Below, piece after piece: positions 8,074-55,255 of a stretch of DNA of 64,000 nt; within the stretch, counting starts at the first letter, position 1, and each line of letters begins with the position of its first letter. Position numbers and translations under genes: made by a program. The stretch covers positions 9,326,501 to 9,390,500 of the forward strand of contig NC_083522.1 of NCBI RefSeq assembly GCF_032362555.1. Reading direction: 5' to 3'. The notes under the pieces are model-generated. The model saw nothing but the letters and a program-made list of their open reading frames with translations. It did no database searches and was not told the origin of the DNA. The DNA comes from Amyelois transitella (taxonomy: Eukaryota > Arthropoda > Insecta > Lepidoptera > Pyralidae).

Positions 8074-11000
8074 ATGGCAGTAGCATCAAAAGGTTAGTAT
8101 AATAATTAATTTTAAGTCTACGACAAAAGTTATCGCCTGCTTCGAAGGTCGGGGTCAAATTCCACTTGTTATGTTTTGAAGAATTTCAATAGAAGCAAAT
8201 GAGAATTAACAGGTTTTAATTATAAATAAATTTTTAACAAAAACAACATCAGATTTAATTTCTTAAATAAAATGTAAGAGCCTGATTTAATTTCTTTCTA
8301 CAAAATTTTATTTTGAATATACAATTTTCTTGTATGAACGAAGTCCAAAAGTTCGGAAATACCTCTTTCAGTATTAAACCAAACTACTAATGAATACGTA
8401 ATGACTTATCTTAGACCGAAATTTCGTTTAAGGTATATTTATAAGTAAGTATATTTCGTTAACAAATATACTTTTTTTTTTTTAGAATTCTCACGTACCT
8501 ACCTAACTGAAAATAATTCTCATAACAAAAGTACATACATCAATTCCCAGTAATCAATACATGTATTGCATACTCTCAATAAGAGTTTGTAATTAAATCG
8601 CACGTTATAACCCATGTAGGTACCTACATCCTGATTTTTACTGTTAACTAAATGTGTGGTTCCCGGCACCTATAGAAAAAAGAATAGGACCACTCTTCCT
8701 GTTTCCCATGGATGTCGTAAAAGGGGACTAAGGACTAAGTGTACTGTCGCTCGTGTAATGTTGCCCGCGTCGTTCTGTAGAACGCCAGCCGACGCCGCTA
8801 GGAAGCCGGAAGATGTGCTTGATTATTTTCCATGTGAGAATTTATTGTCTTCATAATAGTATTAAGGCGACTTAGGAATAGGCTTATATACTTGGGATTC
8901 CTCTTGTAGGCGATGGGCTAGCAAACTGTCACTATTTGAATCTCAATTCTCTCATAAAGCCAAACAGCTGAACGTTCAGTCTTTTGATGACTGTTGGCTC
9001 TGTCTACCCTACCAGGGGATATAGACGTGATTATATATTAGGTTATCTTAATTGCCTACAGGAATATTTATTCTGGGAGCTAAGCGCACACCCTTTGGTA
9101 CATTCGGTGGTGTGTTCCGTAACACAACAGCCACGGAGCTGGCATCGCTGGCCATAACTGCCTCGCTGAAGGAAGCTGGAGTACCTCCAGAGAAAGTTGA
9201 CACCGTTATTGTGGGGCAGGTCATCGCTGTAAGTTGTTTTTAGCTACTTATGTATCTCGCTTTCTTTTCTATATTATGGCATCCACCGAACTTTCAATGA
9301 TTCTAACAATGTCATGGTTTGAAGAGACACGAAGTTATGAAATTGGTCGATGGATGGTTATACCATCTGAAAGGAGAAGGTTAACGAATATAAGAACACA
9401 AAAAGACAAATATAACAAGTAGTCATTGTAAGTAAAAAAGAGAACAAGTAGTAAGAGCTACTTATGTTTGTTTAACTATGTTATTTTATTATTAAAAAAA
9501 ATTGTACTTTTGTTGGAAATTAATAAAATATTGTACTGTTTTATTTTTAAAAGCAAAGTCACATAGGCTTTATTTCCTCTACATTCTCATGGGAGCTGAG
9601 AGATTGTAGGTCTTGGAAAACTACTTTGTTACAATATTTTTTTTATGTCCATATTGAATTAATTATAATATTTATAACAAGTGCCTTATGTAAGTTTTAA
9701 GAGTTATTAAAATCCTATAGGTACATTCGTCTGGCGTTTAGTTAGTTTTGTCTTTCCTGTGTAGGATTCAGGTCAGGGTTGGAGTCTACTTTCTGCGACC
9801 TCATGTTAATACATTGCACAACTCCCACACGGGAAATTTAAAGCAACTTGGTGCTTTTTCTATGATAGTCCTTGACAACTTGACATATTATTTTATTTTG
9901 ATTTTTTCAGTGAAAGAAGTTATTAACTTATTATCACTGTAGTTCATGCCTTGATAACACAGAAATGATAAAAGCATTAAATTATGTATCTGTAAATTTT
10001 TTATTTATACATAGGTACTTACTTAGGTATTTAACATTCTTACATTTCTATTTGAAATGGACTAGATTGTTTAGATCTATTGTTCACCCCAAGTGCCCCT
10101 AGAAGTGAAGGTACACTCCGTACCTTCAGATCATAAGGAAACCAACCAAATTTCAACTTTCAACGCTCAGTAGTTTCGGCTGTGCATCAGTCCTCTGTAA
10201 CAGAAGAGTTATTATTGATTATGTGAAGCAGAGTGTATCCATTTATATGCTACTGTATCGCGAAATTCCCATGAAAGTCTCGCGCAAACCCAAGGATAAG
10301 AAATAAAGTATTTATTAATTTTGTTTTAATTGTCTACCCCGCAGGGGATATAGACATGATTATATGTACGTATGAATTTTGTCCAGTCATCAGCCACGGA
10401 TGGAATCTACACACCTCGCCATGCAGCGCTGAAAGCTGGCATCCCTCAGGACAAGCCTGTTCTCGGCATCAACAGGCTGTGCGGCTCAGGATTCCAGTCT
10501 GTTGCCAACAGTGCACAGGTATGAAATGAACAGATTTGAACGAAAGTACACAGGTTTGAACGGGTATGAACAAATTTGAGCAAGTTTGAACACAGTACAC
10601 AGGTTTGAACATTAGGGCACGGGTATAAACAACATTAAGCAAGTTTGAACACAGTACACAGGTTTGAACATTAATGCACGGGTATAAACAACATTAAGCA
10701 AGTTTGAACACAGTACACAGGTTTGAACAATAGGGCATTATGAACAACGTTTGTTCAAACCAGTGCAATATATAACTGTTCTTGAACAAAGTGCACTGGT
10801 TTGAACAATACCTGGTGCAACTGATATGAACAACATTGAATATTATTCAGGAATTATTTAGGTACGCGTATACTATAATGATCAAATGCAATAAAATAAT
10901 TAAAACTGAAAATCTACAACTGAATATTAAAACTACAAAATTGGTCACAGGACATCATTACCGGGGCAGCTAAAATATCCGTGGCTGGAGGCACAGAGAA

Positions 11001-31521: not shown

Positions 31522-31569
31522 AGAAAATGTGCCAAATTTAGATTTTAATATGTACTAGCAACTGATGCT

Positions 31570-32330
31570 AGAATATTGTTAAAAATCATACAAATCAATA
31601 CGAAAGAAATGACAGCATGTAATATTTTGATTGGAGGAGAAAAAGTGGAGCAAGTGAAAGAGTTTGTATATCTAGGATCAAAGTTTACATCAGATGGCAA
31701 GTATGATAGTGATATTGAAAGGAGAGTGAACGCGGGGAACATGGTGAATGGAGCTTTGCATGCCTTTATGAGCAGTCAGAAACTATCCAAAAAGGCTCGA
31801 CTGGCTGTGCACAGGGGCGTGTTGGTCCCGACATTAATGTATGGGAGTGAAAGTTGGGTATGGCAAAAGAAGCATGAAAGCAGAATAAATGCAGTGGAAA
31901 TGAGAGCGTTAAGGAGTATGATGGGTGTGAAATTGAGTGACAGGATAAGGAACAGCGTGATAAGGGAATGTTGTGATGTGAAAGAAGATGTAGTTACAGG
32001 AATAGAAAAGGGTATGTTAAGATGGTTCGGTCATGTGGAGAGGATGAATGAAAGCAGGTTGACTAAGCAGATATACAAGGAGAGTGTGGAGGGAAAGGTC
32101 GGAGTGGGAAGACCTAGACGAACGTATCTTGATCAAATTAAGGACGTCCTGGTAAAGGGTCAGGTCAAAAGTACCCGAAACCGCCGAGCTTGTATGAAGA
32201 GAGTTATGAATGTGGACGAAGCGAAAGAAGTATGCAGAGATCGTGGCAAGTGGAAAGAGGTAGTCTCTGCCTACCCCTCCGGGAAAGAGGCGTGATTTTA
32301 TGTATGTATGTATGTATGTATGTATGTATC
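31570..32330 (+). mobile_element. R5 RTE-like LINE, longest copy (3' ORF end)
   Basis: A 239-residue open frame (31576-32295) matches the region after the reverse transcriptase in RTE-type non-LTR retrotransposons: [41 protein letters not shown] and [13 protein letters not shown]. The end encodes AYPSGKEA-stop, followed by TGATTTTATG and (TATG)n. The 5' two-thirds, including endonuclease and polymerase motifs, is absent, so this copy cannot move by itself. It lies just downstream of the thiolase C stop. Confidence 0.85.
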
Positions 32331-40700: not shown

Positions 40701-43700
40701 TTCGTTGCTTCCCGTATCTACAAGAATTACTTGTCGACACCGGCGCCGGCGCCGGCAGGCCGGATGAGCTGAAATGGGAGGTCGAATTGGCTAGGGCATT
40801 AGCCGTGGATAGGATTTGCGAAATTAGGTGAGAAATATCAGAAGGATGTTCTTTTTTTTATCATTTTTGTGCGTATTACGGAAGAATTTGTTATACATTT
40901 GTCGTTAAAGGCGACTAAGGGATAGGCTTATAAATTTGAGGTTTTTCAGGGTGGGTACGCAATGGGCTAGCAATCTGTAAATACATATTGTAATAAAGTT
41001 TAGGTTTTTCTTTTGGGATTTGAATCTCAATTCCATCAAGCCAAACAGCTGAATGGTGGCCTTTCAGTCTTCTCAAGAGTGTTGGCTCTGACTACTCCAC
41101 ACGGGATAAAGACGTGATTATATGAATATGTGCCGTGTGGTTCCCGGCACCATTCCATCTCTTTTCTGTGGATGTTGTAAAAGGCGACTAAGGGATACAA
41201 ACTTGGGATTCTCTTTTTAGGCGATGGGCTAGCAACCTGTCACTATTTGAATCTCAATTCCATCAAGCCGAACGCGGCCTATCAGTCTTCTCAAGACTGT
41301 TGGTTCTGTTTACCCCGCAACGGGAAATAGACTTGATTATATGGTAATGAATTGTAAATAAAAACGTGACATATATGAAAACTAGCGACCCGTCCCGGCT
41401 TCGCACGGGTGCAAAATTATAAATGTTATTATACATAAAAACCTTCCTCTTGAACCACTCTACCTGTTACAAAAAACCGCATCAAAATCCGTTGCGTAAT
41501 TTTAAAGATTTAAGCATACAGACAAACAGACTAAAATAGCGACTTTGTTTTATACTATGTAGTGATGAATTCGTTGAAGTTGTGACCTTTTTGTATTGCT
41601 GCCACTCACACCCTATTAATTTGTATTACATATGAAATTGTAAATTGTGTGTAGCAAATCAAATCAATGAATTATCTATTGCCGTGTGGTTGCCGGCACC
41701 AATACAAAAAAGAATAGGACCATTCCATCTCTTTCTCATGGATGTCGTAAAAGGCTACTAAGGGATAGGCTTGCAAACTTGGGATTCTTTTTCAGGCGAT
41801 GGGCTAGCAACCTGTCACTATTTGAATCTCAATTCTATCATTAAGCCAAATAGCTGAACGTGGCCTATCAGTATTTTCAAGACTGTTGTCTCTGTCTACC
41901 CCGCAAGGGATATAGACGTGACCATATGTATATGAATTATCTATCTATCTATCTAATCGTATACGTTGGTCAGGCCATCCAGCCACGGCCTAGAACTGGT
42001 CCCGGTGATATCCTCGATCCTGAACCGCTGCACGGAGCGCGCCGGCGCGGCCGCCAGCGGCGCGGCGCTGCGTGCGCTGGCGCGGCTGTGGCGCGGCGGC
42101 TGCGTGCGCGCGCCGGGCGCGTGGCGGGCGCTGCGGCACAAGATGGCGGCCGACGCCCGCCCCGCACTGCAGATCAGGTGCGCTTGTATACGAACATTGT
42201 TGTCATTTAACTTCAACTTCGTGAACTTAGACCTCGTGAACTCGGACCGCGAGAATTTAGAACTCGCGAACTTAGACTTCGAGAATTTAGAGCTCGTGAA
42301 CTTAGAACTCGTGAAGTTAGACCTCGTGAACTCGGACCGCGAGAATTTAGAACTCGCGAACTTAGACCTCGAGCCTTGTATACGAACATTGTTGTCATTC
42401 TGGTTTAAAAAGAAAATGTAGAAGACCTTATATTTTCTCTTCTGTTATTGCCTCTGTCTACCCCGCAAGGGATATAGACGTGACTGTATGTATGTATCAA
42501 ACAGAGCGTCGGTGGTCGAATCGGTAAGGTGCCCGGTTAAAACGCGTGTTGCGCATAAAGACACCAGTTCGAATCCCACCGCGGTCATTTGCCAATGACT
42601 ATTTTCGAAGTTACGTTACATTAGTTTGAATACTAACCGATGTTCTTACTGTGTGGTGTGGGACTACATCGTGAGATAACTTAATACAATAATAAACCAA
42701 GCAACCTTGGTAGGGCTAACATTATTAATTTTAATACAAACTTACACCCCCCATTTTAGTATTCTAGAGATTGATTTTTTTTTTAAATAGTGTCCTATGT
42801 TAGAACGCGGTTTTAAAACTATTATGCCTGCGGTTTATCAGTGAAAGCGGATCAGACAGACTTACACATTTCTATGAAGTAAGCGATAGTAACTGAGCGA
42901 TTACTTGAAATGTCAAAATATCAATTAATTATGACCAACAGAAGCAAAAATTGTGATTTTTTTAATTTCTCTCTTGTCTGTATGTTTGTTATGTACCGTG
43001 TGGTTTCCGGGACTTTAGAATGAAACCACTCCATATATTTCCTATGGATGACTAAGGGATAGCGGCTTATGAACTTGGCAACTTTCCTTTTGTGGGTGAT
43101 GAGCTTGCAACATGTCACTATTTGAATCGCAATTCCATTATTTAGCCCTACAGCTAGCGTCAGAGTTTCAGTCCTTGCGAGACTGTTGCCTCTGTCTACC
43201 CCGCAAGGGATATAGACGTGATTATATGTATGTATGTACATGTTTCAGCCTATGTCGTCTGTTATCCGAAATCCCAGCACTACGGGTGTCTTCCCCGGAA
43301 TTCGATAATCTCATAAGTGACGTCACTGGCAAATTGTGGAACTTCATCGCAGAGTCCAACAACCCCGAAGTGGTGGAAGCGGCGTGCGATGCGCTTGCGC
43401 AGTATAAAATTACTGATTACCAATTGAAAGATATTCCCGAGGTAAATGTATATTTGTAAAGTTATGTGTAAGTATGAACGTGGCCTGTCAGTCTTTTTGA
43501 GACTGTTGGCTCTGTGTACCCCGCAAGGGATATAGACGTGATTGGATGTGTGTATGCATGTATATACGGAAAAAATTACACATATCGAGTTGGCTTCGAA
43601 ACTTGTGTTACGAAATACTAACTCAACGATATTATATTTTGTAATAAACATCCAAGACCCAGGTTAATTAGAAAAAGTTCGTTTGTCATCATGCCCTGGC

Positions 43701-44008
43701 CGGGATTCGAACCCGGGACTACCGGTGTCACAGCGCACTACCGGTACGTCACAGAGGCCTTTATTTAAGAAATTGAAATAAATAAGTGCATGTGTGGCCC
43801 GAGATTGACATAATGGCATGTGCATTTTTGACATGGCATTGACATAATTTGTACAGTATGTATATAATATATTATATATATCTTGTTTTATATATATATA
43901 TACATACATAAAATCACGCCTCTTTCCCGGAGGGGTAGGCAGAGACTACCACTTGCCACGATCCCCGCAAACTTCCTTCGCTTCATCCACATTCATAACT
44001 CTCTATAT

Positions 44009-44067
<59 letters not shown>

Positions 44068-44074
44068 ATATATA

Positions 44075-44157
<83 letters not shown>

Positions 44158-44164
44158 ATATATA

Positions 44165-44261
<97 letters not shown>

Positions 44262-44289
44262 ATATACACACATATATATATATACATAT

Positions 44290-44320
<31 letters not shown>

Positions 44321-44646
44321 TATTATTAGGTTTTTACTCATTCATATTTTTTGCAATGTGCATTGGATTTAATATTTTTAATTGACGTCCGGTAAAAATG
44401 CTGCAGCGTAGTTTGTTCCGCCGCTTCTTCTACATATGCGCTCTCGATGTGGTAGTAGTTATAATTAGATTTAAGTGTTGTGACGTCATTAAGTGACCTT
44501 GTATTCAATTATGAAAATAAATCTATTCTATGCATTATAATAAATATGTCAGTCTTAATGTCTATCATTAAGTCAAACAACCAAATACTAGCACCCTGTC
44601 AGTTCAGTCTTTTCAAGACTATTGGCTCTTGTCTACCCCGCAAGGG

Positions 44647-44680
<34 letters not shown>

Positions 44681-47600
44681 GTCTTAATATATGTTTTTTG
44701 TCAGGTGTACCGTCGCTCGGTAAAGTTGCCCGCGTCTTTCTGTAAAACGCCCGCCGACGCCGCTAGGAAGCCGGAAGATGTGCTTGATTATGTTCCGTGT
44801 GAGTTTTTTTTTACGGGACTAATTATACAGATTGAGTTAGCCTCGAAGTAAGTTCGAGACTTGTGTTACGAGATACTAACTCAACGATACTATATTTTAT
44901 ATATACACCAAGAATAAACATCCAAGACCCAGGCCAATCAGAGAAAGTTCGTTTCTCATCATGCCCTGGCCGGGATTCGAACCCGGGACCTCCGGTGACA
45001 CAGACAAGCGCACTACCGCTGCGCCACAGAGGCCGTATTGTCTTCATAATAGTACTAAGGCGATTAAGGAATAGGCTTGTTATAAACTTGGGATTCTTCT
45101 TTTAGACGACAGGCTAGCAACCTGTCACTATTTGAATTTCAATTCTATCATTAAGCCAAACAGCTGAACGTGGCCTGTCCAGTCTTTTCAAGACTGTTAG
45201 CTCTGTCTACCCCGCAAGGGATATAGACGTGATTATAATGTTTGTATGTATAATAGTGCTAGCTTTACCCGCAGCTTTACGCGCCTGAATTTAGCGCAAT
45301 TTTCATAAAGCGACGATTGTAACGCCATCTACAAAAAAGCGGAGAAAATAGCACCACCACCTATAAAAAGCAACGAATTAAACGCCACATACATACATAT
45401 AGGCACGTCTGTATCCTTTGCGGGGTAGACAATGCAACGGTTAACAGTGTTAAAGACTAAAAGGTCACGTGAACGTGCTAACCGATGCTCTTACGGTGAG
45501 GGAAAACATCGTGAGGAAACCTGCACATTCAGGCAACTGGATGTGTAACCATGATCGATCCAATACGGGTTAGGTTCCCCCGCAAAGGTTGCGGAGGTCA
45601 GACGGGAGTCGCTTCATGTATAAACCTGATTCAACCAATCCTAGATCCATGGTCAAAGGCACACCCCGGGCTCCTCTCCAGAGCGGTGAGGATGCAACCG
45701 GGACTAAAGCCAGGAGGAAGAAGATTCTATCATGTTTTTAACTAATTAATATTGATTTTAGATTTTGTTGTTGCCGTGTGGTTCCCGGCACTAATACAAA
45801 AGAGAATAGGACCACTCCATCTCTTTCCCATGGATGTCGTAAAAGGCGACTAAGGGATAGACTTACAAACTTGGGATTCTTCTTTAGGTGATGGGCTAGC
45901 AACCTGTCACTATTTGAATCTCATTTCTATCATTAAGCCGAACAGCTGAACGTGGCCGTTCAGTCTTTTCAAGATTGTTGGCTCTGTCTACCCCGCAAGG
46001 GATATAGACGTGACTATATGTATGTACTAGAGGCCGCCCGCGACTTCGTCCGCATGGAAACCCTATCAATCCCGCGGGAACTCTGGGATAAAAAGTAGCC
46101 TATGTGTTATTCTGGGTCTTCAGCTACCTACATACCAAATTTCATGGTAATCGGTTCAGTAGTTTTTGCGTGAAAGAGTAACAAACATCCATACATCCAT
46201 ACAAACTTTCGCCTTTATAATAGTAGTAGGATGTAGATTTTGTAATTATCCATATTCCAGGTGAAGTCTGGCCGGAAGTATACAAATATACAAATCAAGC
46301 CGCCTTAAGCGGCGTGGAGCGTCTTTGCACCAAATTGATAGACAGAGAAATCAAGGGGTACCGGAGTGGAGTGTACCACCACGACTCCAGACAAGAACCA
46401 CCTTCAGCGGGGTACTTGCCCGCTAGTAGTGTGGCCAGGGGACTGTTGGACTGCTTCAGGAAACAGGTAGATCTCATTAGTTTAGTACCACTAGGACTCT
46501 ATAAGAACCACCCTCAGTGGCGTGCTGCTAGTATTATGGCCAGGGGACTGTTGGAATGCTTCAGGAAACAAAAAGATTTCATTAGTTTAGTACTACCAGG
46601 ACTATATAAGAACCACTTTCACTGGCGTATACTGCTAGTAGTGAAGCCAGGGGAATGTTGGACTGCTTAAGGAAACAGGTAGATGTCACTAGTTTAGTAC
46701 CACCAAGACTCTAGAAAAGAACCACCTTCAGTGGCGTACTGCTAGTAGTGTGGCCAGGGGAATGCTGGACTGCTTCAGAAAACAGGTAAATGTCATTAAG
46801 TTAGTACCATCAGGACTCTAGACAAGAACCACCTTCAGTGGCGTGCTGACAGTATTATGGCCAGGGGACTGTTGGACTGCTTCAGGATACAGGTAGATGT
46901 CATTAGTTTAGTACCACCAGTACTCTATAAGAACCACCTTCAGTGGCGTGCTGCTAGTAGTGTGGCCAGGGGACTGTTGGACTGCTTCAGGAAACAGGTA
47001 GATGTTATGAGTTTAGTACCACCACGACTCTATAAGAACCACCTTCAGTGGCGTGCTGCTAGTAGTGTGGCCAGGGGACTGTTGGACTGCTTCAGGAAAC
47101 AGGTAGATGTTATGAGTTTAGTACCACCACGACTCTATAAGAACCACCTTCAGTGGCGTGCTGCTAGTAGTGTGGCCAGGGGACTGTTGGACTGCTTCAG
47201 GAAACAGGTAGATGTTATGAGTTTAGTACCACCACGACTATAAGAACCACCTTCAGTGGCGTGCTGCTAGTAGTGTGGCCAGGGGACTGTTGGACTACTT
47301 CAGGAAACAGGTAGATGTCATAAGGTTATTATCACCACGACTCTAGACAAGAACCACCTTCAGTAGGGTACTTGCCCGCTAGCAGTGTGGCCAGGGGACT
47401 GCTGGACTGCTTCAGGAAACAAAAAGATCTCATTAGATTAGTACCACCAGGACTCTATAGGTAAGAACCACCTTCAGTGGCGTGCTAGTAGTAGAGTGGC
47501 CAGGGGACTGTTGGACTGCTTTAGGAAACAGGTAGATCTCATTAGTTTAGTACCACTAGGACTCTATAAGAACCACTTATTATTTTGCCTGCAAAGTATA

Positions 47601-50600
47601 GTAAGATGGGATATCCCAGTTTTTCTAAGGGAATGGAAAATAAATGAATATATTTTTTCATTTTTTATTATACTAGGGACAGTTGCAGTTGTAATAGTAT
47701 ATATATTGATGATTTTTAACAGTGCCACGCGGGGATATAGACGTGATTATATGAATGAACGAATGATGAATTAATTCGTTATCATTTTGCCTAGGACACG
47801 AACCAAATACTACGGCCAGTCGACTATAACGTGCGAAGGTGCGCGCCTTTTTAACAAGATACCCTCTGATTTCAAAAACATTACCTCGTTCGATGTATTC
47901 AAGAGACAATAAGCCGAGCACATAATCTCAATTTACTGAACTTTTACTGTTATATTTCTTTTATTATTGTGACAACGAACTTTTTTTTTTCTTTTTATGT
48001 TCTTATGTAAGTGATGTAAAATATGTTTTTATAAGAATAAAAGTCTATAAACCTAAAACTAATTTCAGGCAACATCCCCCTCATACGAATTCCCCGATAC
48101 CGTTCTCCTGTCAGTCCTCCGCACGCTGACAGCGGAGTACCCGCGCCCCCTGCCGCCAGGGGACCTGTGCTTCCTGCACGAGGCGCTGCACAGAGGCGAG
48201 GCGTGGCGGGCGGGCTGCCTCGGGCTGGCGGCGAGGCAGGCGACTGTGTCTGCCTCGGCGAAGAGACTGCTGGAGAATTACCTGCAAGGGATCGATCCGG
48301 GAGTCTCTGATGTGAGTATTGTTGGTACATTTGCATATATATATAGGTACAATCACGCCTGTTTCCCATTATTGGGATAGGCAGATGCTATGGATTTCCG
48401 ATACGATCCTTATAGACCTCTCTCGCTTTGTTTGTTATACATAAAAAGGGGTAGGTAGTTTGTTAGTTGTTTTCAGAAATAATAAGTAGTTATATTGAGA
48501 AACCATTGGTTATAAATATGCTATTCTCAAAATATTACTTCCAATAGACATCTTATGTAGTGGGTATTAGTAATGTTTTTGTACCGAGGCGAGGCAAGGC
48601 AGGCTGCCTCGGGCTCGCGGCGAGGCAAGCGACTGTGTCTGCCTCGGCGAAGAGACTGCTGGAGAATTACCTGCAGGGGATCGATCCTGGAGTCTCGGAT
48701 GTGAGTATTGTTGGTACATTTGCATATATATAGGTACAATCACGCCTGTCTCCCATTGGGGTAGGCAGATGCTATGGATTTCCACTCACTACGATCCTTA
48801 CTCGGAATCGATCCAAGCGTCTCTGATGTAAGTTCTGTTTTATAGACGTGATTATACGACGGCCTCTGTGGCGCAGCGGTTGTACGCTTGTCTGTGACAC
48901 CGGAGGTCCCGGGTTCGAATCCCGGCCAGGGCATGATGAGAAAAGAACTTTTTCTGATTGACCTGGGTCTTGGATGTTTATGTATATAAGTATTTATTAT
49001 AAAATATGGTATCGTTGAGTTAGTATCTCGTAACACAAGTTTCGAACTTACTTCGAGGCTAACTCAATCTGTGTAATTTGTCCCGTATATATTTATTTAT
49101 TTATTTATTTATATGTGTATGTACAAAAAATATGAGTGATTTCATGTACGTATTTACATAAATACGTACATAAAATCACACATATTTTTCGTCTTTCGTG
49201 TTTTGTTGTACTGGCCACTTTTAAAACAGACTTGTTTATTTAATAGAACATACATATATACATATAATCACGTCTATATCCCTTGACAATAGACAGAGTC
49301 TTGAAAGACTGATAGGCCACATTTGGCTGATAAGCTTAATATTAGAATTTATTCTTTATTTTAATTTTTTTTTAATTTTATATATTCTTCTACACATGCG
49401 CTTTGGAAGCGGTAGTAGTTATAATTAGTTTTAAGTGATGTGACGTCAATAAGTGATACCTTGTATCCAATTTTGAAAATAAATCTATTCTATTCTAATT
49501 GAGATTCAAATAGAGACAGGTTGCTAATCCATCGCCCAAAAGAAGAATCCCAAGTTTATAAGCCAATCCCATAGTCGGCTTTTACGACAACCGTGGCAAA
49601 GAAATGGAGTGGTCCTATTCTATTTAAAATTGGTGCCGGGAACCACACGGCAATTAATAGAAAAACATGTTTATTTACAGCAATCTGACATAGTAATACT
49701 ATTCGAGCTACTTCCAGTCCTCTGCCGAGGAATGCCGCCCAACTCTTTACGCAGTCCCATAGAGAAATGTCTTGCCGAGTCTTACTCAGCCATATCGAGG
49801 TTGAAACGAGGTGAGTTCTCTCTCTTATAAAATAAATAAATAAAATATATACGGGACAAATTACACTGATTGTGTTAGCCTCGAAGTAAGTTCGAGACTT
49901 GTGTTACGAGATACTAACTCAACGATACTGTATTTTATAGTAAATACTTACATAGATAAACATCCAAGACCCAGGGCAATAAGAGAAAGCTCTTTTCTCA
50001 TCATGCCCTGGCCGGGATTCGAACCCGGGACCTCCGGTGTCACAGACAAGTGTACCACCGTTGCGCCACAGAGGCCGTCATTAACTCTTATTTTCTTACT
50101 AGTTTAAAGTTTTTTTTTCTGTTTGGTCAGCTGGTTGACTGGTTTTTGTTTTGTGCATTAAAGTTTTAAATAAATAAATAAATCTTCTTGTATTATATAT
50201 ATATAAATCTGTTGCAACTGATTTGTTTCTTTTATAACTATGTACTTACTATTATCCTATTACTGTGTAAATTTCTATGCAATAAAGATATTACAGCCAA
50301 ACAAACAGAAAATAAATAGTATATGAAATGTTTGTTTCAGGTCACAGTGTAGACGAGCCTTTATTCGTGAAACAGTTGAACATGATCCGACAGGCTTTAG
50401 AGAGTGATCGAATTCACGACGCGAACAGAACGTTACTATCACAGATTGTGGAGCATTACTTCTCAGTTATATCTGATGATAATGTGGTAAGTAACTTAAT
50501 GCATATATTTATTTTAAACATATATTATCATGTGTGTAGATGTAGGTATTCACGATCCCTGGGAACTTCTTATTTTTCTAGTACCTGGTTGACTGAGCGG

Positions 50601-53600: not shown

Positions 53601-55255
53601 GACAGAGCGAACAGTCTCGAAAAGACTGAAAGACCACGGTCAGTTGTATGGATTCATACATACATATAATCACGTCTATATCCCTTGCGGGGTAGACAGA
53701 GCGAACAGTTTCGAAAAGACTGAAAGACCACGGTCAGTTGTATAGATTCATACATACATATTATCACGTCTATATCCCTTGCGGGGTAGACAGAGCGAAC
53801 AGTCTCGAAAAGACTGAAAGACCACGGTCAGTTGTATAGATTCATACATACATATAATCACGTTTATATCCCTTGCGGGGTAGACAGAGCGAACAGTCTT
53901 GAAAAGACTGATAGGCCACGTTCAGCTGTATGGCTTCATGATGGAATTTAGATTTGCTAGCCCATCGACTAAATGAGGAATCCCAAGTTTATAAGCTACT
54001 CTACTCCGTCTCTTTCCCATGGATGTCGTAAAAGGCGACTAAGGGATATCCTATTAAAATATCCATGGGAAAGAGGTGGAGTAGAGTAGCTTATAAACTT
54101 GGGATTCCTCTTTAAGGGGCTATCCCTTAGTCGCCTTTTACGGCATCCATGGGAAAGAGATGGAGTAGAGTAGTTAATATACGAAGAGACAGGTTGCTAG
54201 CCTATCACCTACAAAAGGAATCCTCAAGTTTATGAATAATGTTTAGTGGTAATGATAGTTCTGGTCCAATCGCCACAAAGGGAATACCTTCCTGTAGGCT
54301 GATGTGATGCCTGTAGAACCGCGCGACAGACGATGTTATGTCGGTCGACTAAGGGATAGCCCTTAGTCGCCTATTACGACATCCATGGGAAAGAGATGGA
54401 GTAGAGTAGCTTATAAACTTGGGATTCCTCATTTAGGGCTATCCCTTAGTCGCCTTTTACGGCATCCATGGGAAAGAGATGGAGTAGAGTAGCTTATGAA
54501 CTTGGGATTCCTCTTTTAGGGCTATCCCTTAGTTGCCTTTTACGGCATCCATGGGAAAGAGATGGAGTAGAGTAGTTAAAATCATAAAGAGACAGATTGC
54601 TAGCCTATCACCTACAAAAGGAATCCTCAAGTTTATGAATTATGTTTAGTGGTAACGATAGTTCTGGTCCAATCGCCACAAAGGGAAGATCTTTCTGTAG
54701 GCTGGTGTGATGCCTGTAAAGCGACAGACGATGTTATGTCGGTCGACTAAGGGATAGCCCTTAGTCGCCTTTTACGACATCCATGGGAAAGAGATGGAGT
54801 AGGGTAGCTTATAAACTTGGGATTCCTCTTTTAGGGCTATCCCTTAGTCGCCTTTTACGGCATCCATGGGAAAGAGATGGAGTAGAGTAGCTTATGAACT
54901 TGGGATTCCTCTTTTAGGGCTATCCCTTAGTCGCCTTTTACGGCATCCATGGGAAAGAGATGGAGTAGAGTAGTTAAAATCATAAAGACCCATGTCCATT
55001 TACCCCAATCCGTGGAAATTTCACTTGCGCGATTCAGCATACGCGCTGTGATTTGCTAGTGGCGTGTGACGTATTGGAGGTATCGCCACTTATGTATTTT
55101 TTCTTGTACTAGGACTTGGCGGTAGCTCCATCTGTGTGTTATTTTCGTAACTATTTACTTATTATTGTAATAAAAACTTTTATTTCTACAGAGATAATTT
55201 CTTTCTTTACAGAGAATCTTACTTCGGAAAGCATGCTGTAGAAGTTGATATATAG
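34728..55255 (+). CDS. FOCAD: Focadhesin (FOCAD) homologue, 20 exons
   Basis: Exons: 34728-35008, 35475-35675, 35856-36015, 36327-36469, 37452-37582, 38808-39370, 40114-40218, 40700-40827, 41974-42177, 43249-43441, 44705-44798, 46261-46466, 48069-48311, 49681-49810, 50341-50486, 51104-51297, 51520-51639, 52652-52817, 53433-53560, 55192-55255. All phases join to 1199 aa. It is a helical HEAT-like repeat protein; recognition rests on the N-terminal [20 protein letters not shown] region, [23 protein letters not shown] (human MPRGIYHS) and the C-terminal helices. Human FOCAD localises at focal adhesions and supports the SKI RNA-surveillance complex. The model is about 600 aa shorter than human, with the gap between exons 12 and 13. 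Exons 12, 13 and 16 have duplicated 3' ends and donors. Confidence 0.85.
35172..35375. repeat. 111-bp direct duplication in FOCAD intron 1
   Basis: Two nearly identical copies of a ~91-bp core ('aacttatgatgagaaggtag' through 'gacacatagaaagag'), offset by 111 bp. Confidence 0.85.
36490..36805. mobile_element. Inverted pair of R6 elements in FOCAD intron 4
   Basis: A minus-strand copy (36490-36610) and a plus-strand copy (36620-36805) face each other. Confidence 0.6.
36932..37045 (-). mobile_element. R1 fragment
   Basis: Tail-side ~110 bp, reverse. Confidence 0.65.
37147..37372 (-). mobile_element. R5 LINE 3' fragment joined to an R1 tail
   Basis: The reverse LINE tail is followed directly at about 37369-37410 by 'gcaagggatatagacggatt', a sense R1 tail; this composite precedes FOCAD exon 5. 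Confidence 0.7.
37726..37975 (+). mobile_element. R1 element
   Basis: Sense copy in FOCAD intron 5 with the head hairpin slightly altered. Confidence 0.8.
38514..38788 (-). mobile_element. R3 Helitron-type element before FOCAD exon 6
   Basis: Its TC-end is 20 nt upstream of the exon 6 boundary. Confidence 0.85.
39483..39907 (+). mobile_element. Two R4 Helitron-type elements in tandem
   Basis: Head-to-tail copies at 39483-39699 and 39709-39907. Each is followed by 'ttttaata', so the spacer is repeated. The copies differ at several positions. Confidence 0.85.
39940..40080 (+). mobile_element. R1 fragment before FOCAD exon 7
   Basis: Sense 3' half ending about 33 nt before the acceptor. Confidence 0.75.
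40257..40550 (+). repeat. 15-bp minisatellite, about 19 units, FOCAD intron 7
   Basis: Units alternate between 'ctcgcgatcttagac' and 'cttgcgaacttagat' types. The array starts about 38 nt after the exon 7 donor. Translated, it gives NLDLA-like pentapeptides, but it lies in an intron. Confidence 0.9.
40905..41125 (+). mobile_element. R1 element, decayed
   Basis: Sense copy in FOCAD intron 8 with an internal insertion of about 50 bp near 40985-41025. Confidence 0.65.
41131..41345 (+). mobile_element. R1 element, second tandem copy
   Basis: Directly follows the previous R1 copy; the head hairpin is present and part of the body is deleted. Confidence 0.75.
41383..41565 (-). mobile_element. Helitron-type repeat of another family
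   Basis: Begins 'actagcgacccgtcccggct' (CTAG end on the reverse strand), then 'tcgcacgggtgc' and 'aaaaccttcctcttgaacca', a stretch common in insect genomes. Confidence 0.55.
41681..41935 (+). mobile_element. R1 element, full length, before FOCAD exon 9
   Basis: Near-consensus sense copy, 38 nt from the exon 9 acceptor. Confidence 0.85.
42222..42372 (+). repeat. 15-bp minisatellite, about 10 units, FOCAD intron 9
   Basis: Same unit type as 40257-40550 ('ctcgtgaacttagac', 'cgcgagaatttagaa'). It is flanked by a direct repeat 'cttgtatacgaacattgttg' at 42181 and 42374, the first copy starting just after the exon 9 donor. Confidence 0.9.
42503..42720 (+). mobile_element. R6 SINE-like element with head
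   Basis: Head carries 'gtcggtggtcgaatcggtaa' and a B-box-like 'agttcgaatccc', which suggests a tRNA-derived promoter. Confidence 0.65.
42990..43235 (+). mobile_element. R1 element before FOCAD exon 10
   Basis: Sense copy whose TATG tail ends about 12 nt before the acceptor tgtttcag. Confidence 0.8.
43470..43560 (+). mobile_element. R1 tail fragment
   Basis: Sense last ~90 bp, with TGTGTATG tail. Confidence 0.65.
43562..43762 (-). mobile_element. R2 tRNA-derived SINE
   Basis: Reverse copy with internal deletions; B box still GGTTCGAATCC-like. Confidence 0.75.
43902..44005 (-). mobile_element. R5 LINE tail fragment
   Basis: Reverse 3' end; runs into the microsatellite. Confidence 0.7.
44010..44325. 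repeat. Long (TA)n / (TG)(TA)n microsatellite
   Basis: About 300 bp after a short (TC)n run. The interior has a ~110-bp self-similar block with 'tatgtatatatgtatatata' and 'tgtgtgtatata'. Open frames across it (YIYIYI) are not genes. Confidence 0.95.
44375..44525 (+). mobile_element. R8 unclassified repeat
   Basis: Same core as 28657-28830; ends near 'aaataaatctattctatgc'. Confidence 0.6.
44815..45036 (-). mobile_element. R2 SINE inserted just after the FOCAD exon 11 donor
   Basis: Reverse copy beginning about 17 nt after the exon. It is absent from the exon 11 copy at 8735-8872, where 'gtgagaattta' joins straight to 'ttgtcttc'. Confidence 0.85.
45057..45245 (+). mobile_element. R1 3' portion downstream of FOCAD exon 11
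   Basis: Lacks the head; starts at 'aaggcgattaaggaatagg'. The variant 'aggaatagg' is shared with the 8873-9036 half-element. Confidence 0.75.
45400..45735 (+). mobile_element. R1 fragment joined to R6 element
   Basis: A short reverse R1 tail (45400-45465) is followed by the R6 body (45465-45735) with 'gaggaaacctgcacattcag'. Confidence 0.6.
45771..46022 (+). mobile_element. R1 element, full length
   Basis: Near-consensus sense copy; an R4 element begins 4 bp later. Confidence 0.87.
46027..46231 (-). mobile_element. R4 Helitron-type element before FOCAD exon 12
   Basis: TC-end is 29 nt upstream of the exon 12 boundary. Confidence 0.85.
46467..47577 (+). repeat. 105-bp tandem array copied from FOCAD exon 12 end plus donor
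   Basis: About ten intronic copies follow the exonic one. Each has the exon end 'gactgttggactgcttcagg'+aaacag, usually the donor gtagat, about 45 bp of intron, then exon-like 'aagaaccaccttcagtgg'. The three copies spanning 46950-47245 are almost identical; others vary, and two have lost the donor GT (46560s, 47420s). 105 is a multiple of three, so the array stays open for stretches. Confidence 0.92.
48338..48400 (-). mobile_element. R5-related LINE tail variant
   Basis: Reverse 'caatcacgcctgtttcccat' variant just after FOCAD exon 13; duplicated again at 48736-48790. Confidence 0.5.
48588..48830 (+). repeat. Second and third partial copies of FOCAD exon 13 end plus donor
   Basis: 48588-48790 repeats 48196-48400, 389 bp downstream, with an open exon end ([15 protein letters not shown]) and donor GTGAGT at 48701. 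A shorter third copy (ggaatcgatccaagcgtctc...) ends in a consensus donor GTAAGT at 48828. Confidence 0.88.
48858..49110 (+). mobile_element. R2 tRNA-derived SINE
   Basis: Near-consensus with TTTATTTATTTATTTAT tail. Confidence 0.9.
49250..49652 (-). mobile_element. R1 element interrupted by an R8 copy
   Basis: Reverse R1 (49250-49340 and 49497-49652) with R8 (about 49341-49496) inserted. The head is 28 nt from the FOCAD exon 14 boundary. Confidence 0.75.
49836..50078 (-). mobile_element. R2 tRNA-derived SINE
   Basis: Reverse copy in FOCAD intron 14; starts 25 nt after the exon. Confidence 0.88.
50825..50988 (-). mobile_element. R2 SINE, tail-truncated
   Basis: Reverse copy in FOCAD intron 15. 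Confidence 0.8.
51298..51336 (+). repeat. 39-bp duplication giving a second in-frame donor at FOCAD exon 16
   Basis: 'atagacgctcagagtaccat'+gatcag is repeated once, separated by 'gtcagttttgttt'. Donors are GTCAGT (51298) and GTGAGT (51337). Using the second adds 39 nt, 13 residues ([13 protein letters not shown]), with no frame change or stop. Confidence 0.92.
51869..52190 (-). mobile_element. R5 RTE-like LINE 3' fragment
   Basis: Reverse copy in FOCAD intron 17 with an internal deletion near 52000. Confidence 0.75.
52825..53029 (+). mobile_element. R4 Helitron-type element 7 nt after FOCAD exon 18
   Basis: TCCTACTACTATTATAAAGG to GGCGGCCTCTAG. Donor bases +1 to +7 (gtataca) are all that precede it. 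Confidence 0.87.
53150..53405 (+). mobile_element. R1 element before FOCAD exon 19
   Basis: Sense copy; tail ends about 30 nt before the acceptor. Confidence 0.8.
53568..53950 (-). repeat. 94-bp tandem array of R1 tail segments, about 4 units
   Basis: 'ttcatacatacatataatca' recurs at 53653, 53747 and 53841, each followed by the reverse R1 tail region with 'gagcgaacagt'. Confidence 0.88.
53951..54985. repeat. R1-derived satellite, 83-bp units, 398-bp higher-order period
   Basis: 'gctatcccttagtcgccttt' starts at 54438 and 54521, and again at 54836 and 54919 (83 bp within pairs, 398 bp between pairs). Each block also holds 'agttctggtccaatcgccac' and an inverted junction 'taagggatagcccttagtcg'. 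All within FOCAD intron 19. Confidence 0.88.

Follow-up and report, generated by a model that had tools for sequence, protein, structure and literature searches.

A decayed copy of focadhesin exon 11 between two R1 parts beside a thiolase-like exon in Amyelois transitella

The window, a stretch of 64,000 nucleotides of Amyelois transitella DNA, holds a focadhesin (FOCAD) gene, thiolase-like exons and copies of a repeat termed R1 here. FOCAD exon 11 was placed at 44705..44798 on the plus strand by protein comparison with Plodia interpunctella focadhesin. The exon begins in phase 0, with the acceptor ttttttgtcag before it and the donor GTGAGT after it. Exon 10 ends in KDIPE; the protein of exon 11 carries on from there and passes into that of exon 12, in agreement with the Plodia sequence. 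The nearest protein was the Plodia focadhesin, with 71% identity over 98% of the searched part; 52 proteins were found, with scoring confined to the 7990 candidates that had the most words in common. The name focadhesin is taken from this match. The FOCAD pieces searched alone matched no Pfam family, and one of them had no match in the PDB.

Two repeats lie in FOCAD intron 11. The first is a tRNA(His)-headed SINE on the minus strand at about 44812..45036, located by an ARAGORN match at 44962-45033 with its edges set by eye; no clear target-site duplication was seen by eye around it. Elsewhere in the window, ARAGORN reported five more tRNA-His-like sequences and one tRNA-Val-like sequence. The second repeat is a 5'-truncated R1 on the plus strand at 45057..45251, covering positions 73-262 in the consensus alignment. 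It is preceded by ATAATAGTACT at 45046..45056, which pairs with ATAATAGTGCT after the R1 tail as a target-site duplication. The pair agrees at 10 of 11 bases, with a p value of about 0.007 against 3000 random pairs.

A thiolase-like exon was found at 9062..9231 on the plus strand. Its best E value was 1.2e-12 against acetyl-CoA C-acyltransferase models, and TIGR01930 gave 6.7e-11; the scores are below whole-protein cut-offs, as is expected for a single exon. Several thiolase-like exons stand in tandem beside FOCAD between 9000 and 29300, and their spacing suggests that there are probably three gene copies. The copied sequence adjoins the exon at 9062 on its 5' side. The original prediction had placed the copy in a thiolase intron; the adjoining exon agrees with this, and an acceptor AG at 9060-9061 suggests the intron itself.

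The composite is bounded by the candidate target-site duplications GTTAACTAAAT (8643..8653) and GTTATCTTAAT (9042..9052), which agree at 9 of 11 bases. Inside them, the R1 5' part (8654..8739, plus strand, consensus 6-91) differs from the R1 consensus at 10 of 86 bases. It is followed by a decayed copy of FOCAD exon 11 on the plus strand at 8739..8833, which shares base 8739 with R1. The copied exon-11 donor (GTGAGA) and an intron stub at 8834..8852, recognised on the plus strand by sequence comparison, come next. To the right of the exon copy and donor, the stub reads AATTTATTGTCTTC and passes into ATAATAGTATT (8853..8863, plus strand), the copied form of ATAATAGTACT, the left target-site duplication of FOCAD's R1. 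The R1 3' part then starts at position 73 and covers consensus 73-250, with a decayed tail, at 8864..9041 on the plus strand by consensus alignment. The exon copy had been predicted to sit between the two halves of an R1 element; it does lie between R1 parts, but the parts overlap by 19 nt (R1 73-91). Statistical support for the outer duplication is weak: among 5000 random window pairs, 162 scored as high as GTTAACTAAAT/GTTATCTTAAT (p about 0.03), the p value was 0.225 in a looser test, and such a duplication would equally hold for a resident R1.

The predicted exon copy was borne out by direct comparison. Between 8739-8833 and FOCAD exon 11, 87 of 94 bases are equal, with seven substitutions and one inserted T, and BLAST inside the window gave 90% identity over 108 bases (E 5e-36). 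Moreover, TATTGTCTTCATAATAGTA and the R1 part after it in the copy were 85% identical to FOCAD 45036-45237 over 203 bases by BLAST. Of the seven changes, four fall at a first or second codon position, and the extra base disrupts the frame; for this reason the copy is regarded as the derived and unconstrained one. It is no longer an exon, with its broken frame and with R1 instead of a polypyrimidine tract in front of it. The exon copy looks dead, and no function is suggested for it. These comparisons support FOCAD, 36 kb away on the same chromosome (C18), as the source.

The exon copy could have belonged to an R1 subfamily, with the same 138-bp segment in hundreds of R1 copies; this was searched for in the 327-Mb genome and rejected. 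Only two matches were obtained, the copy and FOCAD, which is the sole other match, and both of the two candidates were scored; for very common words, absence in such a search does not prove rarity. A query joining the R1 5' part to the exon start had 1677 first-look candidates. Among the 40 that received a score, the 39 other than the copy itself all stopped by 8745. As far as these genome searches see, the composite arose once only and is not an R1 subfamily.

At the left junction, R1 ..gataGG passes into FOCAD ..tcaG/GTGTACC with substitutions only against the R1 consensus and no indel. The junction sits inside an AGG common to R1 and FOCAD, exactly at the exon-11 acceptor, with 3 nt of microhomology. 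The right junction, from R1 73 onward, is seamless and lies in R1 homology. The end of the R1 5' part, AAGGACTAAG, directly before the exon, could be taken as filler. That view was rejected since AAGGACTAAG is also present in R1 elsewhere: allowing at most one mismatch, a pattern with this end matched 62 places in the genome, four of them exactly, namely the copy and three elsewhere.

The last 50 nt of R1 are 82% identical to the end of a LINE frame at 31549-32295, which we take to be RTE-like; Pfam gave one match on this frame, below the cut-off and not to a reverse transcriptase. Target-site duplications were clear in 9 of the 15 plain near-full-length R1 copies tested in the window (p_null at most 0.025), and three further aligned copies were left out of that test. 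No head from tRNA, 5S or 7SL RNA was found: one copy with its flanks had no Rfam match at the gathering level, and none of the seven ARAGORN matches in the window overlapped an R1 match. Hence, R1 is not a SINE in the strict sense of an element with such a head. Other forms of R1 were also observed. At 53970-55010, pieces of R1 39-93 stand head to head with reverse-complement R1 (about 91-117) at a spacing of about 83 bp. Around position 1500 of locus L035 (C11:8797993), an R1 5' part stops at about R1 91 and runs straight into a GTAT tail, and this R1 is perhaps an internally deleted form.

The variant 'aggaatagg' had been regarded as a diagnostic mark shared by the copy and FOCAD. The variant is uncommon and is present in both, but the 5' R1 part of the copy has the same A. 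This A, at R1 86, was found in 5 of 97 other R1 copies in a sample not chosen by a pattern containing it. In a broader set, 23 of 237 copies had A, but 16 of these 23 had been fetched by an A-containing pattern; removal of these and of later loci left the 5 of 97. A better mark of origin from FOCAD is the left half of the duplication that belongs to FOCAD's own R1. The R1 of FOCAD looks like a normal truncated insertion flanked by its own duplication, and the copy carries the left half of that duplication. The prediction had also stated that the identity includes the donor and the following intron. The copied donor and stub match FOCAD, but in FOCAD the antisense tRNA(His)-headed SINE, which is absent from the copy, now stands between the exon and the stub. 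Since the copy has the left duplication of the FOCAD R1 and lacks the SINE, the sequence implies that the copy was made after R1 had entered FOCAD intron 11 and before the tRNA-headed SINE did.

The R1 3' parts of the copy and of FOCAD both have A at 86 and T at 245, the latter a common base (112 of 228 copies). The copy lacks the FOCAD variants at 80, 119, 123, 124, 151, 191 and 211 as well as the three FOCAD insertions; a FOCAD variant at R1 253 is beyond the aligned end of the copy. The FOCAD pair 123C-124A, if it were the linked mark of a subfamily, would mean that the R1 3' part had not been copied from FOCAD. In a pattern-biased set, 7 copies had CA, 15 C only, 23 A only and 186 neither (p 0.013); the linkage is weak, and this candidate mark decides nothing.

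We tentatively favour a once-only local template-switch copy through synthesis-dependent repair, with R1 homology at one end and microhomology at the second, and put this at slightly below an even chance. An R1 would already have been resident upstream of the thiolase-like exon and would have broken near R1 position 91. The right arm may then have paired with the R1 of FOCAD intron 11, 36 kb off, and synthesis would have prolonged it to the left, beyond R1 and across the intron stub and exon 11. The extended end would have rejoined the left arm at the common AGG (R1 ..ataGG, FOCAD ..tcaG/G), which is the exon-11 acceptor. The two junctions have the form of ectopic repair, that is, homology at one and microhomology or filler at the other, a form that is not exclusive to repair. 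Such a pair of junctions is what one-sided, homology-started repair leaves. With R1 making up 14.7% of the window, homologous partners are everywhere. Moreover, past position 86 the R1 3' part and FOCAD have only the T at 245 in common, as expected if the inner part alone came from FOCAD.

The distance between source and copy was also considered. For a random insertion in trans, the sequence no more than 36 kb from the source amounts to about 72 kb of the 327 Mb (2e-4). One confirmed single-copy sandwich (R1, foreign piece, R1) in one 30-nt gap class, together with the 9 of 22 window R1 copies that were exact at both pattern ends, would give tens of sandwiches genome-wide as a rough figure. 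At 2e-4 each, about 0.01 would be expected this near by chance, again as a rough inference. The nearby source fits local DNA repair through R1 homology somewhat better than the retrotransposition of the original prediction. Several points stand against local repair. The locality is partly a matter of ascertainment, in that the prediction could notice only pairs inside one window, and the junction lies exactly on the splice acceptor, which an RNA would explain. The divergence of the parts does not decide the mechanism. Changed bases number 21 of 245 in the R1 flanks and 6 or 8 of 115 within the insert (p 0.29 or 0.68), counted by hand without indels and position 245, where the count of 6 assumes that some silent changes arose in FOCAD; the flanks are thus not clearly older than the insert, which is a further point against local repair.

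Other R1 composites were explored as a comparison set. A scan of the window and 48 loci (49 sequences, 211 kb) for an R1 5' part, a gap and an R1 3' part gave six pairs including the FOCAD copy. In the pair at 49250-49652, R1 is split by a 147-bp repeat which by eye also lies beside the C3 source of locus L063, described below. In locus L033 (2273-2594), 77 bp are inserted between R1 44 and 58, and the remaining three pairs had gaps of 18-89 bases. A genome pattern for R1 halves 170-200 nt apart gave 30 matches. By eye, five of these were R1/foreign/R1 (L061, L062, L063, L076 and L080), L067 was unclear, and 24 were multiple or nested R1; a second gap-class pattern gave 24 matches, which were left unclassed. 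The inserts of L080 (14-nt R1 overlap) and L076 (5-nt R1 overlap) are repeats, with 1761 first-look candidates and 139 candidates genome-wide, respectively. By eye, L062 resembled an RTE fragment and L061 a rearranged R1.

L063 (C11:5680207), in contrast to these repeats, holds a single-copy insert. Its positions 1501-1703 (C11:5680146-5680348) consist of R1 1-130, a 104-bp insert and R1 102-262. The insert was 96% identical to C3:509746-509850 and had no other match, both of two candidates having been scored, and it runs antisense to a putative coding frame. The nearest R1 to the source on C3 is about 0.8 kb off, with none directly beside it. The two R1 parts overlap by 29 nt (R1 102-130) with four differences, three of them at sites where R1 copies often vary, which suggests two different R1 templates. 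Foreign pieces thus seem to enter R1 from other chromosomes as well, and a trans route seems to exist. Among the sandwiches resolved, no second one with a nearby source was found, the single-copy case L063 having its source on another chromosome; this also counts against local repair.

Such a trans route leads to the first alternative, which is unlikely but the most serious of the rivals. An RTE-type reverse transcriptase would have been primed on an R1 tail, either that of FOCAD or that of another R1 RNA switching into FOCAD RNA. It would have copied the stub and exon 11 and jumped to an R1 5' RNA, and the composite would have been inserted as one unit with a target-site duplication. The resemblance of the R1 end to the RTE-like LINE end and the clear duplications of plain R1 copies argue for this, as do the outer duplication at p about 0.03 and L063, a sandwich of the same shape with an unlinked source and apparently two R1 templates. 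Double template jumps have also been published (among the retrogenes described in PMC2104539). Against it, retrotransposition in trans is unlikely to place a copy only 36 kb from the source, the outer duplication fell to p 0.225 in the looser test, and the L063 insert, antisense to its putative frame, may itself derive from DNA. Priming on FOCAD's own tail would require that FOCAD's seven unshared substitutions and three insertions all postdate the copy, so that the copy would date from shortly after the arrival of R1 in FOCAD. The original prediction had proposed a version of this route, namely read-through of exon 11 into the R1 tail, copying from the tail and a switch to an R1 5' half. Its FOCAD source, single copy, colinear run from exon 11 over the R1 edge into R1 and switch to an R1 5' part all agree with the results; its RNA template is possible.

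A second alternative, which we consider improbable, starts from splicing. A transcript with a sense R1 upstream of exon 11 would have used an R1 donor (TAG/GC or TAG/GT after position 90), spliced to the exon-11 acceptor, and then been retrotransposed from the R1 of intron 11. The junction exactly at the acceptor is explained in this way, and the expected product ..gataG/GTGTACC fits the observed letters with three substitutions and no indel. Furthermore, R1 has AG/GC in 58 and AG/GT in 5 of 93 copies in a sample not chosen by pattern. However, AG/GC followed by TTA is a poor splice donor, intron 11 is still unspliced in the copy, and the locality, with the source only 36 kb off, counts against this route also. 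Acceptors are often AG/G, and AGG occurs nine times in FOCAD 43446-44798, once as the acceptor. Microhomology alone would therefore land there with a chance of about 0.1-0.25, and the coincidence with the acceptor is weaker than it looks. In human LINE-1 chimeras, 6 of the 17 mRNA pieces stop exactly at a splice donor (as given in PMC13174262), which lends the splicing route some precedent. The general form of this idea, that R1 transcripts act as 5' exons, with a cryptic R1 donor joined to host acceptors and the R1-exon RNA retrotransposed with a second R1 tail, leaving exons cut at their exact 5' boundary, is quite doubtful. If true, a SINE-like element could shuffle exons in this way.

Finally, insertion of the FOCAD piece into a resident R1, with the 19-nt R1 overlap as its target-site duplication, is very improbable and was rejected: nested inserts with such overlaps exist in R1 (14 nt in L080, 5 nt in L076), but this insert has no tail at either end, and its limit would have to coincide precisely, by chance, with the edge of the R1 in FOCAD.

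The value of the locus is that one window shows the source, the sequence of events and the two junctions together. An abundant moth repeat may hence serve as a model of how often repeats help to copy gene pieces, through RNA or DNA. Abundant repeats can help to carry gene pieces to new places. A literature search for exon capture by lepidopteran SINEs listed three papers, none of which concerned such an event by title or abstract, and no claim is made that it is unreported. The event belongs with known kinds, namely LINE/SINE chimeras and templated insertions.

R1 itself is comparable to HaSE1 of Helicoverpa armigera, an RTE-dependent moth SINE (PMC3272025), and to RTE elements with simple-repeat 3' ends (PMC2887409). 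As described there, these share with R1 a short length, a 3' tail that in R1 is putatively RTE-like, and target-site duplications. R1 differs from them in ending in (GTAT)n and in that the copies examined showed no tRNA or 5S head. Template jumps of LINEs make bi- and tripartite chimeric retrogenes (PMC2104539), and in the cases described, as here, pieces are fused with SINE or LINE parts; theirs have short flanking repeats in clear cases. In contrast to those retrogenes, the middle piece here comes from an ordinary gene and comprises one exon with an intron stub, the right R1 part adjoins this piece already at the source, the copy lies 36 kb away and an RNA template is only possible. The LINE-1/mRNA 5' chimeras reported in PMC13174262 likewise join a gene piece to a retroelement exactly at a splice site. 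Those described are mostly first exons upstream of a near full-length L1, whereas here an internal exon has R1 before it and an unspliced intron after it. The class 2 templated sequence insertions characterised in PMC5110952 resemble the composite in that a distant piece is patched into a site with microhomology at a junction, and differ from it in that one junction here lies in long R1 homology.
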